33,394 nucleotides of DNA, taken from positions 1 to 33,394 of the forward strand of contig JALFIB010000007.1 in assembly GCA_022776305.1 (NCBI GenBank), in the 5' to 3' direction. Both the position numbers and the translations under genes were made by a program. The notes under the pieces were generated by a model, which saw only the letters and a list, made by a program, of their open reading frames with translations, did not search any database and was not told where the DNA came from. Below, in pieces: positions 240 to 25,849 of this stretch; positions within the stretch are counted from its first letter, which is position 1; each line of letters starts with the position of its first letter. The DNA comes from Lachnospiraceae bacterium. GTDB lineage: Bacteria; Bacillota; Clostridia; Lachnospirales; Lachnospiraceae.

Positions 240-1397
240 TCAACGCACAACGCGGACTTTGATCACACCCTCAATGGCCCGAAGCTGGGAAACTACTTCT
301 TCTGACACAGGTGTATCAAGGTCAAACAGAGTATATGCGTAATCCCCTTTACTTGTATTGCTCATGTTCTGGATGTTGGTGTCTGACAATACATCCGTAA
401 ACCGGCTGATCATCTTCTTCACATTTTTGTGGTAGATCGCCAGCCTCGATGCAGCCGTACAAATGCCAAGGTCGCAGTTGGGATAATTGACAGAGTTCCG
501 GATATTTCCATTTTCAAGGAAATTCTTAAGCTCATTTACTGCCATCACTGCACAGTTGTCTTCGGATTCCACTGTGGATGCCCCAAGATGAGGGGTCACG
601 ATCACGCCCGGTTTTCCCGCTGTCACTGTATTCGGGAAGTCAGAAACGTAGCGATGTACTTTTCCTGCCTCAATAGCTTCCAGAACTGCCTCTTCATCTA
701 CCAAGAGATCCCTTGCATAGTTCAGGATCACCACATTATTTTTCATTTTTGCGATGGCATCCCTGTTGATCATCTTTTTGGTGGACTCCAGCAGCGGAAC
801 ATGGATTGTAATATAATCACACTGTTCATAAATCTGGTTCACATCATTGATATGGTGGATGTTTCTGGAAAGGCTCCATGCCGCATCCACAGAAATATAT
901 GGATCATATCCGTATACTTCCATGCCAAGATGAGTTGCTGCGTTGGCCACCTGTACGCCGATGGCTCCAAGGCCGATGATTCCCAGTTTTTTATCCTGAA
1001 GTTCACTTCCTGCAAACTTCTTCTTTTCTTTTTCCGTGGCAGCAGCGATTCCTTCATTGCCGGCCTGGCTTTTTACCCAGTTTGCTCCGCCGATGATGTC
1101 TCTGGCAGCCATGAGCATTCCTGCAAAAACGAGCTCTTTTACACCGTTTGCATTCGCTCCCGGTGTATTAAATACTACAATACCCTTTTCCGCACATTTA
1201 TCCAGCGGAATATTGTTCACACCGGCACCTGCACGGGCAACCGCCTGTAAGGTATCCGGGAGTTCCATTTCATGCATATTTGCGCTGCGGACCAATACGG
1301 CATCCGCCTCGCTGATATCTTTTACTTCTTTGTAGTCCTCTGTAAAACGGTCAAGACCTACTTTTGCAATGGGATTTAAACAAGCATAACGATACAT
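240..1397 (-). CDS. serA: D-3-phosphoglycerate dehydrogenase with C-terminal ACT domain
   Basis: The product (385 aa) should oxidise 3-phosphoglycerate to 3-phosphohydroxypyruvate with NAD, the first step of serine synthesis in the cytoplasm. The D-2-hydroxyacid dehydrogenase fold is clear. The Rossmann motif GLGAIGVQVANAATHLGMEV is followed by YGYDP, and the acidic residue there fits NAD rather than NADP. The C-terminal segment VTPHLGAST carries the catalytic His. The last ~70 residues look like an ACT domain, the usual place for serine feedback. The length matches the short ~385-residue form common in anaerobes, which lacks the extra ASB domain. The ATG overlaps the serC stop by one base (TAATG), so the two genes are probably translationally coupled. 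Serine inhibition is inferred from the ACT domain. Confidence 0.95.
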   Translation of the reverse strand: MYRYACLNPIAKVGLDRFTEDYKEVKDISEADAVLVRSANMHEMELPDTLQAVARAGAGVNNIPLDKCAEKGIVVFNTPGANANGVKELVFAGMLMAARDIIGGANWVKSQAGNEGIAAATEKEKKKFAGSELQDKKLGIIGLGAIGVQVANAATHLGMEVYGYDPYISVDAAWSLSRNIHHINDVNQIYEQCDYITIHVPLLESTKKMINRDAIAKMKNNVVILNYARDLLVDEEAVLEAIEAGKVHRYVSDFPNTVTAGKPGVIVTPHLGASTVESEDNCAVMAVNELKNFLENGNIRNSVNYPNCDLGICTAASRLAIYHKNVKKMISRFTDVLSDTNIQNMSNTSKGDYAYTLFDLDTPVSEEVVSQLRAIEGVIKVRVVR

Positions 1398-2479
1398 TAT
1401 TTATTCACCTCTTCAAACTCTTTCATGAATTTTACGAGAGCCTCTACACCCTCTATGGGCATAGCGTTGTAAATGCTTGCACGCATTCCACCCACCGTGC
1501 GATGCCCTTTTAAATTGACAAAGCCTGCAGCTTCTGCTTCTTTCACGAATTTTGCATCAAGCTCTTTATTTCCTGTGACGAAAGGAACATTCATCAAAGA
1601 ACGGTCTTCTTTTACCACAGTACCGCTGAACATATCACTCTGGTCAAGGAAATCGTACAGGATCTTTGCTTTTGCCTCATTGCGCTCTTTCATGGCAGAT
1701 AAGCCGCCGATAGATTTAATCCATTTAAACACTTTGCCGCACATATAAATGCAGTAGCAGTTGGGCGTGTTGTACATGGAACCGGCATCTGCATGGGTCT
1801 TGAATTTCATCATGGTCGGTGTGAAAGGCATCACATCATCTGTGATCAGGTCTTCACGGACTATGGAGATCACCATACCGGCCGGACCGATATTTTTCTG
1901 TACGCCGCCATAAACAATACCGTAATCCGATACGTTGATAGGCTCAGAAAGGAAACAGGAGGAAACATCTGAAACCAGAAGCTTTCCCTTTGTATTCGGA
2001 AGTTTTTTATATTTTGTTCCATAAATGGTGTTATTCTCGCATATGTATACGTAATCCGCATCCTCGCTGATGGGAAGATCACTGCAATCCGGAATGTAAG
2101 AGAACATCTTATCTGCACTGGAAGCTACGGCATTTGCTTTTCCGTATTTCTGTGCTTCCTGCCATGCTTTTTTCGCCCACTGGCCTGTGATCACATAATC
2201 TGCTACCCCGTTTTTCATCAGGTTCATCGGAATCATTGCAAATTGGAGGCTGGCTCCGCCCTGCATAAACAACACTTTATAATTGTCTGGAATCTGCATC
2301 AGGTCCCGCAGGTCTGCCTCTGTCTCCTGAATGATATCATCAAACATTTTTGAACGATGGCTCATTTCCATGACAGACATCCCATGACCTCTGTAGTCCA
2401 TCATTTCTTCCTGTGCTTCTAACAGCACAGCTTCCGGCAATACTGCCGGCCCTGCAGAAAAATTGTATACTCTGCTCAT
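1397..2479 (-). CDS. serC: phosphoserine aminotransferase
   Basis: The PLP enzyme (360 aa) transfers the amino group of glutamate to 3-phosphohydroxypyruvate, giving phosphoserine. The N-terminus MSRVYNFSAGPAVLP is the SerC hallmark. The PLP lysine is K195 in YGGVQKNIGPAGM, and HRTVGGMRASIYNA near the C-terminus is the phosphate-binding segment. An in-frame upstream start at 2509 exists, but the ATG at 2479 has AGGAGG seven bases upstream and gives the standard 360-residue length, so it was chosen. The gene leads the serC-serA-DUF1015 unit. It has its own promoter overlapping the end of ilvB and a long structured leader. No phosphoserine phosphatase gene is in view. Confidence 0.96.
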   Translation of the reverse strand: MSRVYNFSAGPAVLPEAVLLEAQEEMMDYRGHGMSVMEMSHRSKMFDDIIQETEADLRDLMQIPDNYKVLFMQGGASLQFAMIPMNLMKNGVADYVITGQWAKKAWQEAQKYGKANAVASSADKMFSYIPDCSDLPISEDADYVYICENNTIYGTKYKKLPNTKGKLLVSDVSSCFLSEPINVSDYGIVYGGVQKNIGPAGMVISIVREDLITDDVMPFTPTMMKFKTHADAGSMYNTPNCYCIYMCGKVFKWIKSIGGLSAMKERNEAKAKILYDFLDQSDMFSGTVVKEDRSLMNVPFVTGNKELDAKFVKEAEAAGFVNLKGHRTVGGMRASIYNAMPIEGVEALVKFMKEFEEVNK

Positions 2480-2637
2480 TTTTTCATCCTCCTCAATCCT
2501 CATGCCCATCGGGCTGCCGCACCATACATTCCGACTTATGGTTTCCTGTACCAGATCTCATTTCAAACCATACAGGATCTTTGTATGCTGCAACAGCCCG
2601 ATTTTCTTTACCGCTCTACTCCATCGCAGTGCGGATT
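2480..2637 (-). promoter_or_regulatory. Structured 5' leader of serCA, candidate cis-regulatory RNA
   Basis: The region between the predicted serC transcription start (~2637) and the serC start codon can fold strongly on the minus strand. A nine-base arm (2594-2602) pairs perfectly with 2508-2516. The pairing continues inward, 2583-2593 against 2517-2527, with one mismatch and two G-U pairs, giving about 20 bp. Inside the loop, CCTGTA (2571-2576) can pair with TACAGG (2545-2550), and ATGGTTT (2565-2571) with AAACCAT (2538-2544). These two pairings interleave, so they form an H-type pseudoknot or two exclusive hairpins. A small stem (2611-2614 with 2631-2634) precedes it. No U-tract follows the long stem, so it is not a simple terminator. 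No T-box signature was found. It resembles no RNA class I recognise. Confidence 0.6.
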
Positions 2638-2643
2638 TTCTAT

Positions 2644-2672
2644 ATTGTATTACTTCGTTAAAGATTAGTCAA
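2644..2672 (-). promoter_or_regulatory. serCA promoter, sigma-A type
   Basis: TTGACT (2667-2672) and TACAAT (2644-2649) on the minus strand are separated by exactly 17 bp. The -35 box overlaps the ilvB stop codon, so serCA can be transcribed independently of the upstream leuB-ilvD-ilvB genes. The expected start is near 2637. Confidence 0.75.
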
Positions 2673-4338
2673 GGTCATCTTGGTCAAATACAGCCTCAAT
2701 TGACTGTCCTGCCGGAACCATGGGGAAAACTTTGTCATCGCAGTCGATGATACAGTCAAGAACAACCGGCTTTCCGAGGGCAATGGCCCGTTCCAGAGCA
2801 GGTCCCACCTCTTCTTTTTTTGTAACACGGATTCCTTCCGCTCCCATTGCCTCAGCAAGCTTTACGAAATCCACTGCGTCATTTAAAACTGTCTGAGAAT
2901 AGCGTTTTCCGTAAAACAGGGTCTGCCACTGGCGAACCATGCCCAGAACATGGTTGTTGACTACCACCTGAATCACAGGAATGTTATATCTTGCCGCTGT
3001 AGCGATCTCATTCATATTCATGCGGAAACAACCGTCACCTGCCACATTGATGACTACTTTATCCGGATTCGCTGTCTTTGCACCGATGGCAGCGCCAAGA
3101 CCGTAACCCATGGTGCCAAGGCCTCCGGAAGTAAGAAGCGTACGCGGTTTCTGGTATTTAAAATACTGTGCCGCCCACATCTGATGCTGGCCTACCTCTG
3201 TGACAATAATAGCGTCTCCTTTTGTAATACGGTAGATCTCCTCAATAATATAAGGACCGGTCAGACCCTCTGTGTTATATTTCAACGGATATTTCTCTTT
3301 TAATTCCTTAACGGATGCATCCCACTCATCATGGCGATGGTCTTCGATACGGGCATTCAACCGCTTCAGCACTTCTTTGATATCACCGATAACGCTGGCA
3401 TCTACTTTAATGTTTTTATTGATCTCAGCCGGATCTACATCAATCTGAACAATTTTTGCATGTTTTGCAAATGTCTTTGCATTCCCGATGACACGGTCAC
3501 TGAACCTTGCTCCCACTGTAATCAAAAGGTCGCACTGCATAACGCCCAAATTGGACGCTTTCGTCCCATGCATGCCAAGCATACCGGTGTACAGTTCACT
3601 CTCTCCATTGTATGCACCTTTCCCCATCAGGGAATCCGCAACCGGCGCATGCACTTTTTCTGCAAATTCTTTCAGCTCGTCAGCCGCATCTGAGATCACA
3701 GCGCCGCCGCCCACGAAAATAAACGGTTTCTTACATTTATTGATCAATTTTATAACTTCATCAAGGTCTGACTCTTTGATGTATTCCGTGCTTCTTACGA
3801 TGGGTTCCGGAACCGCTGGCTCGTAATCTGTCACAGCTGCCGTTACATCTTTCGTAATATCCACAAGAACAGGACCCGGTCTGCCTTCCTGCGCGATCCG
3901 GAAAGCCCAACGAAGGGTATCAGCAAGCTTTGTGACATCCTTTACAATAAAATTGTGTTTTGTGATAGGCATGGTCACACCGGTAATATCAATCTCTTGG
4001 AAACTGTCTCGTCCAAGCATAGGTACCGCCACGTTTGCCGTAATTGCCACCACGGGTACTGAATCCATATATGCAGTAGCAATTCCTGTAACCAGATTGG
4101 TTGCTCCCGGGCCGGATGTAGCCATACAGACACCTACTTTACCTGTAGAACGGGCATATCCGTCTGCTGCGTGTGCTGCCCCCTGCTCATGTGAGGTAAG
4201 GATATGGCGGATCTCTCCGCTGTGTTTATAGAGTTCATCGTATACATTCAGAATGGTTCCGCCCGGATATCCAAATACGGTATCCACGCCCTGTTCCTTC
4301 AGACATTCAATCACAATTTCTGAGCCATTCAATTTCAT
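2665..4338 (-). CDS. ilvB: acetolactate synthase, large (catalytic) subunit
   Basis: The ThDP enzyme (557 aa) condenses two pyruvates, or pyruvate and 2-ketobutyrate, in the first common step of valine, leucine and isoleucine synthesis. Visible landmarks are the ThDP-activating glutamate E51 in LTSHEQGAAHAADGYAR, the central FAD/Rossmann-like domain, and the ThDP-Mg motif starting GDGCFRMNMNEIATAARYN. The last segment YFKYQKPRTLLTSGG belongs to the catalytic domain. It starts 102 bases after ilvD and has a GGAAAG ribosome binding site. No ilvN regulatory subunit follows. The next genes are serC and serA, so the small subunit must be elsewhere or absent. The enzyme is biosynthetic rather than catabolic by context. 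Confidence 0.94.
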   Translation of the reverse strand: MKLNGSEIVIECLKEQGVDTVFGYPGGTILNVYDELYKHSGEIRHILTSHEQGAAHAADGYARSTGKVGVCMATSGPGATNLVTGIATAYMDSVPVVAITANVAVPMLGRDSFQEIDITGVTMPITKHNFIVKDVTKLADTLRWAFRIAQEGRPGPVLVDITKDVTAAVTDYEPAVPEPIVRSTEYIKESDLDEVIKLINKCKKPFIFVGGGAVISDAADELKEFAEKVHAPVADSLMGKGAYNGESELYTGMLGMHGTKASNLGVMQCDLLITVGARFSDRVIGNAKTFAKHAKIVQIDVDPAEINKNIKVDASVIGDIKEVLKRLNARIEDHRHDEWDASVKELKEKYPLKYNTEGLTGPYIIEEIYRITKGDAIIVTEVGQHQMWAAQYFKYQKPRTLLTSGGLGTMGYGLGAAIGAKTANPDKVVINVAGDGCFRMNMNEIATAARYNIPVIQVVVNNHVLGMVRQWQTLFYGKRYSQTVLNDAVDFVKLAEAMGAEGIRVTKKEEVGPALERAIALGKPVVLDCIIDCDDKVFPMVPAGQSIEAVFDQDDLD

Positions 4339-25682: not shown

Positions 25683-25700
25683 GTTTCCTTCCTGTGATCA

Positions 25701-25762
25701 AGCGGATATTCGCCATCCGCTTCGCTACTTTTTTTAACCGAATAACTGCTTCGGTTAAAAAA
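25701..25762 (+). terminator. Double hairpin terminator region after the deacetylase gene
   Basis: A 7-bp stem (25701-25707 with 25715-25721) is followed by CTTTTTTT after eight bases. The T-run is itself the arm of a perfect 13-bp stem (25730-25742 with 25750-25762). The second stem starts with T6 and ends with A6. Together they should stop transcription before spoVAF. Confidence 0.7.
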
Positions 25763-25791
25763 GTATAAAAACAGAAAATCCGGACATTCTA
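25763..25791 (+). promoter_or_regulatory. Sigma-G-like (forespore) promoter of spoVAF
   Basis: GTATA (25763-25767) and CATTCTA (25785-25791) are separated by 17 bp. This matches the known sigma-G pattern (GHATR and CATnnTA with 17-18 bp). It lies 59 bases before the ATG. No good sigma-A promoter is present in the same gap, which fits forespore-only expression. Confidence 0.6.
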
Positions 25792-25849
25792 CTTTTATGA
25801 TGACAGCATGTTCTTCCGACGTGCAAATATAAAACGGAGGACCGAAATA

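Follow-up and report, generated by a model that had tools for sequence, protein, structure and literature searches.

A stable but poorly conserved predicted RNA hairpin with a plausible role between ilvB and serC of a Lachnospiraceae bacterium

A preliminary description of this locus proposed that a structured leader in front of the serine biosynthesis genes serC and serA might be a new ligand-responsive RNA. Is it such a switch, or a more ordinary element of the message? We addressed this question in a 33,394-nt stretch of Lachnospiraceae DNA, the whole of which is referred to here as the window, and in related genomes. The hairpin between ilvB and serC is real. It resembles an ordinary stem-loop between genes, one that may tune the message or protect it, rather than a new metabolite-sensing switch; the earlier observation was largely sound, whereas its interpretation as a new switch lacks support.

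The ilvB-serC spacer and its hairpin

Along the minus strand of the window, the gene order is leuB, ilvD, ilvB, serC and a serA-like gene (Table 1), and all genes of this row except serA matched protein families above the curated cut-off for the named function. The relatives of SerC carry Lachnospiraceae names. The serA-like product, of 385 aa, scores far under the cut-offs of the phosphoglycerate dehydrogenase models and may be a divergent or short form. The 185-nt gap between ilvB and serC (2664-2480) takes in the greater part of a promoter-like site, the small and the long hairpin, and a free AGGAGG. The long stem ends 28 nt before the serC start codon and 14 nt before the AGGAGG, not the 18 bases originally given.

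Table 1. Features of the ilvB-serC-serA region, in window positions.
Feature	Coordinates	Strand	Basis
ilvB, acetolactate synthase large subunit, upstream neighbour	2665..4338	-	TIGR00118, 738 bits, above cut-off
Promoter-like TTGACT-17-TACAAT, probably internal serCA promoter	2644..2672	-	10/12 hexamer match; block in congeners
Small predicted hairpin, leader 5' end	2611..2634	-	computed fold
Outer stem, 5' arm	2582..2602	-	inverted-repeat search, fold
Inner hairpin of best fold, TCCTGTA/TACAGGA plus upper pairs	2544..2577	-	fold, partition function; alone not above chance
Outer stem, 3' arm	2508..2528	-	inverted-repeat search, fold
AGGAGG ribosome-binding site of serC	2488..2493	-	sequence; outside stem, 8 nt before start codon
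serC, phosphoserine transaminase	1397..2479	-	NCBIfam NF003764, 553 bits, and TIGR01364, 514 bits, both above cut-off
serA-like, phosphoglycerate dehydrogenase family	240..1397	-	TIGR01327, 258.6 bits, below curated cut-off of 454

The two arms of the inverted repeat, 21 nt each with 86% Watson-Crick pairing, are separated by 53 nt. Counting G-U pairs, of which there are two, 20 of the 21 positions are paired and the odd one is a G-G mismatch, which bears out the closing stem of about 20 bp in the preliminary description. The fold is far more stable than that of dinucleotide-shuffled sequences, both for the 107-nt hairpin (z -6.67) and for the 171-nt leader (z -5.59), and in neither case did any of 200 shuffles reach the same stability. 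At its quality (21-nt arms, at most one mismatch with G-U allowed, loop of at most 100), the repeat is unique on both strands of the 33 kb. The stem is followed by GGGCATGAGG and has no U run, and a terminator scan of positions 2000-3000 found none; the hairpin is therefore not an intrinsic terminator. Likewise, the ribosome site is free and the hairpin therefore does not mask translation. A repeated or mobile element was also rejected: eight matches to the hairpin region were obtained in its own genome, those listed being the region's match to itself and three others, 17-20 bases long, with E values of at least 0.098, in a draft assembly of 303 contigs where repeats may have collapsed.

The 17-bp-spaced promoter placed upstream of the leader was recovered, though the match alone lies within chance, with a mean of 1.9 such sites expected in shuffles of the 1-kb region scanned. 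Its -35 hexamer overlaps the last ilvB codons. A block TTGAC..TTAAC.AA followed by the -10 occupies the end of ilvB in the window and at loci L031, L059 and L070, and L041 carries the variant TTGACA-17-TAGAAT. The description of a structured leader before serC-serA is thus supported, with the leader lying behind a promoter block that four congeners share. The carriers sit in separate parts of the ilvB tree, in which forks are weak and the window is on a long branch, and all five spacers with the block, the variant of L041 included, fold with z <= -3. Conversely, two genomes, G067 and G006, have lost the -10 and the leader, the -35 block running directly into the AGGAGG, so that the leader would be dispensable there, at least if ilvB read-through serves serC.

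The form TTGAC-N6-TTAAC-N-AA of this block (2654-2672, minus strand; L189-L205) bears what we take to be a resemblance to the Rex operator consensus. This pattern occurs 17 times, in 14 of the 47 genomes of the genus; four of the matches lie before serC and many are followed by a TATAAT-like box. The backwards control pattern also gave 17 matches, i.e. no enrichment, and a Rex-like operator was dropped from the mechanism. As a separate observation, the genome encodes a Rex-type N-terminal domain.

Inner pairings and known leader RNAs

The interleaved a-b-a'-b' pairings described earlier are both present within the loop, as TCCTGTA/TACAGGA (2577-2571 / 2550-2544) and a competing TATGGTTT/AAACCATA (2572-2565 / 2544-2537), on the minus strand. 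Shuffling the 53-nt loop produced two interleaved perfect 6-mers in 3 of 5000 cases, and shuffling the whole 161-nt leader did so in 530 of 5000; at 7 nt, the real sequence has no interleaved pairings under the counting rule used. Folded alone, the inner 61 nt do not exceed the stability expected by chance (z -1.07), and 30 of 200 shuffles fold equally well. The partition function assigns a probability of about 0.97 to the first pairing and about 0.02 to the second (ATGGTTT/AAACCAT), and forcing the latter costs 2.6 kcal/mol relative to the best fold, under an energy model that does not score pseudoknots. Furthermore, judging from the coordinates, two full inner helices would hardly coexist because their arms abut, or overlap by one base, on both sides. 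Plainly read, these models give a single long hairpin plus a minor alternative pairing, and the proposal of a pseudoknot or two-state switch is unsupported.

At the gathering score, Rfam returned nothing over the window nor on the 20 serC loci, out of 127, that were compared, and on positions 2400-2720, up to an E value of 10, nothing but a snoRNA match that covers a few bases and is attributable to chance. The 14-nt T-box sequence has no match within three mismatches in 2480-2664, and four in the window against 5.2 expected. The statement that no T-box or riboswitch class fits is thus borne out. Passages in PMC8002221 report serine T-boxes ahead of serA or serC in some Firmicutes, and the present locus shares with them an RNA leader of a serine biosynthesis gene in that phylum; in the absence of the T-box sequence, of an Rfam match and of an intrinsic terminator in 2000-3000, a T-box riboswitch was rejected. 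In our literature search on serC riboswitches or leaders and on noncoding RNA motifs of Lachnospiraceae, no such element appeared among the matches listed, which is not proof of absence. Nor was a shared serine-rich leader-peptide frame seen by eye in the leaders of the window and L031.

A close counterpart by position is the serC element RF00517, a structured leader directly after the promoter and before serC-serA in alpha-proteobacteria, which, as excerpted from PMC1273637 and PMC7266159, hides the ribosome site inside a hairpin and has the start codon at most 11 nt past the last hairpin. The window leader differs in its 28 nt from stem to start, in its free AGGAGG and in the unmatched Rfam model, and membership was rejected, the ribosome site lying outside the stem. 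An alternative role for the hairpin is that of an operator for an RNA-binding regulator or of a ligand-free leader shaping serC initiation. The hairpin sits just upstream of the ribosome site, and the alpha-proteobacterial element is thought, in the portion of PMC1273637 that treats it, to use hidden ribosome sites, possibly with a protein. Yet the AGGAGG is outside the stem here and the relatives lack conserved unpaired nucleotides that could serve as a binding site, and we regard a protein-bound or translation-coupled leader as improbable.

Conservation and folding of serC spacers in relatives

serC is present in 46 of the 47 genus genomes (the exception being G024), and the spacer between ilvB and serC ranges from 20 to 296 nt in the 45 genomes where it could be measured, that of the window included; in this survey, starts were placed up to 9 nt off in some cases, one spacer (G030) was cut by a contig end and the second copy in G001 was left out as a duplicate. 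That genome carries two serC copies (L055 and L057, on contigs C75 and C141) with the same upstream stretch, either an assembly duplication or a real repeat. The upstream stretch of one congener is identical to that of Parablautia sp. Marseille-Q6255.

The spacer sequence is not conserved between species. A search with the 211-nt leader in 60 genomes gave matches in the last 34 nt, i.e. the ribosome site and the serC start, and one match over the promoter block, in G010. With a covariance model, R1, built from the window hairpin alone and run under stricter filters for the genus and family sets, we found in the 47 genus genomes only the hairpin itself, its own reverse strand and one match with an E value of 0.23 in G033, and in 397 family genomes only the hairpin itself and one match with an E value of 0.1, from another genus; in 100 of the collected loci, two matches with E values above 1 were added to the hairpin. 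Covariation across homologous leaders had been put forward as the check on the leader; a lack of covariation, or of the stem in close relatives, was what would count against it. With R1 finding just two weak matches in the genus and family sets apart from the hairpin itself, this is largely what we observe.

The one candidate homologue is the serC leader of G010 (L031:1402-1479), which came second best, with 11.3 bits and an E value of 0.44, when R1 was run unfiltered on a choice of six loci. There, 14 of 14 modelled outer pairs are standard, the loop has 37 nt versus 66 and the inner pairings are not kept. This likeness to the outer stem of the window is suggestive but falls short of proof. 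As firm covariation evidence it was set aside: MAFFT aligns the 5' arm of L031 to the inner strand of the window while the covariance model aligns it to the outer arm, and in the same run a site of L041 that is not part of the serC leader there outscores L031, with 11.6.

These searches also bear on a metabolite riboswitch, or a pseudoknotted two-state switch, responding to serine, glycine or one-carbon compounds. The interleaved pairings do exist and are rare in shuffles of the loop alone, and the downstream genes make serine. On the other side are the near absence of relatives in genus and family, the marginal second pairing, the frequency of such 6-mers in whole-leader shuffles, the apparent lack of connecting loops for two full helices and the unlike loop of L031. 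With a second pairing so rarely formed and no convincing relatives in either genome set, the ligand-switch reading of the leader is very improbable, and little support remains for the hairpin as a riboswitch candidate.

If the sequence is replaced, is folding nevertheless retained? Of the 57 distinct serC spacers that are 60 nt or longer and have a recognisable ilvB, 23 reach z <= -3; in the 31 of at least 130 nt the number is 18. In a matched comparison of co-directional spacers of 60-400 nt from 39 stretches, z <= -3 was reached by 10 of 17 serC spacers versus 45 of 200 others (Mann-Whitney p 4e-4); only these 17 serC spacers passed the length limits and the simple gene caller, the window's own being absent, and the species are related, so that all such counts are not independent. 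By length, serC spacers differed from the others at 60-100 nt (p 0.010) and 150-400 nt (p 0.004) and resembled them at 100-150 nt (2 vs 65, p 0.46). A U-rich tail after the largest domain was found in none of the 10 strongly folded serC spacers and in 4 of the 45 others. Grouped by downstream gene, with names that outside the window we assigned from protein starts and take as presumptive, the others reached z <= -3 before leuB in 6 of 14, ilvB in 3 of 10, ilvD in 3 of 9, glgB-like genes in 7 of 17, DUF1015-like genes in 2 of 5 and the rest in 24 of 145. Some genus serC spacers show no notable fold, e.g. L028, L042, L046, L062 and L071. Across 195 kb of the genome to which the window belongs, six of 97 intergenic region-orientations fold at z <= -5 and 18 at z <= -3.

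In a clade of six congeners, all 48 of 48 cells of the spacer hairpin are paired, and three pairs have changed on both sides. None of 500 shuffles reached the covariation score, whereas the count of pairs with a double change was reached by 61 of 500 and that of pair types by 398 of 500; the structure was read off the same sequences, which inflates the covariation. Altogether, what recurs in serC spacers is a hairpin of changing sequence.

Possible roles of the stem-loop

The reading that we tentatively favor, at somewhat short of even probability, is that the hairpin is an intercistronic stem-loop which follows a probable internal promoter of serCA and influences how the mRNA is processed or how long it lasts. 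Intergenic stem-loops are cleavage and stability signals in clostridial operons, according to PMC4423207, PMC8219983 and PMC10311766, and a stable stem in an operon spacer near a probable internal promoter fits such a role. RNA would reach the hairpin by read-through from ilvB and, probably, from the internal promoter, in which case the stem-loop would double as the 5' leader of the serC-serA message. It may then be a sequence-tolerant element marking the point at which the long mRNA is cleaved or shortened and protecting the serCA 5' end, the ilvB 3' end or both, which would let the serC-serA level differ from that of ilvB; transcription, cleavage, stabilisation and any effect on expression are what we infer from the arrangement.

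The closest parallel is with the intergenic stem-loops of selective RNA processing and stabilisation (SRPS) operons, e.g. cip-cel of Ruminiclostridium cellulolyticum, which, in the text excerpted from the same three reports, are likewise stable, without a U run, placed between co-directional genes and also changing during evolution. The window hairpin has the stable stem-loop in such a spacer, the single transcript being presumed; it is known from its sequence, whereas the SRPS class is defined by a processing site and a transcript ratio. In those excerpts, moreover, many stem-loops stabilise the upstream gene and the best-known case concerns a protein complex, here replaced by a biosynthesis operon. 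If the hairpin does set the level of serC-serA relative to ilvB, cellulosome-operon stem-loops would extend to amino-acid biosynthesis in Lachnospiraceae, and the short, covarying spacers of the one clade would offer a natural series in which to separate shape selection from template-switch repair.

Several results argue for the processing and stability role: (i) the strongly negative z of the hairpin, the lack of a terminator in the region and the free AGGAGG, (ii) the promoter block in L031, L059, L070 and L041, and (iii) the fold enrichment of serC spacers together with the pairing in the six congeners. Others weigh against it, namely the unconserved sequence, the two genomes without -10 and leader, the unfolded spacers in the genus, the ordinary behavior of serC spacers of 100-150 nt, the strong folds elsewhere (in the own genome and before glgB-like genes) and a promoter match that by itself is within chance.

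The main rival to the stability reading is a neutral quasi-palindrome, that is, an inverted repeat made and kept tidy by replication template switching in a loosely constrained spacer, with no role. Template switching can create and mend stems and imitate compensatory change, as set out in PMC8794818, and on that basis it would explain spacer turnover equally well. It agrees with the variation of the spacer in length (20-296 nt) and sequence among species, the clean loss of the leader in G067 and G006 and the strong hairpins in other intergenic regions of the same genome. The excess of structured serC spacers (10/17 vs 45/200 at z <= -3) speaks against it, and one would hardly expect a palindrome that arose by chance to turn up with such frequency behind a promoter at a single gene. 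We consider a neutral origin a serious possibility, albeit on balance a doubtful one.

Returning to the functional reading, it is tempting to speculate that the ilvB-serC spacer of the genus carries a regulatory hairpin selected for shape alone, with its sequence replaced between species and a stem persisting close to the serC ribosome site, and that the window copy is an enlarged version in which two competing apical pairings provide an additional, lineage-specific switch for serC-serA; this combined proposal is quite unlikely.

Two further observations concern folded spacers. The serC spacers of L043, L055 and L038 contain repeated G+C-rich hairpin modules, GAGCCGCGC...GCGCGGCCTGCGTCC, similar across these species and reminiscent of an invasion of the spacer by small palindromic repeats. 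Within the window, a strong fold is predicted on the plus strand at 25683-25849 (z -5.8 for 25683-25807, and -4.9), upstream of an ORF starting MPEIQNVCKEISENR.
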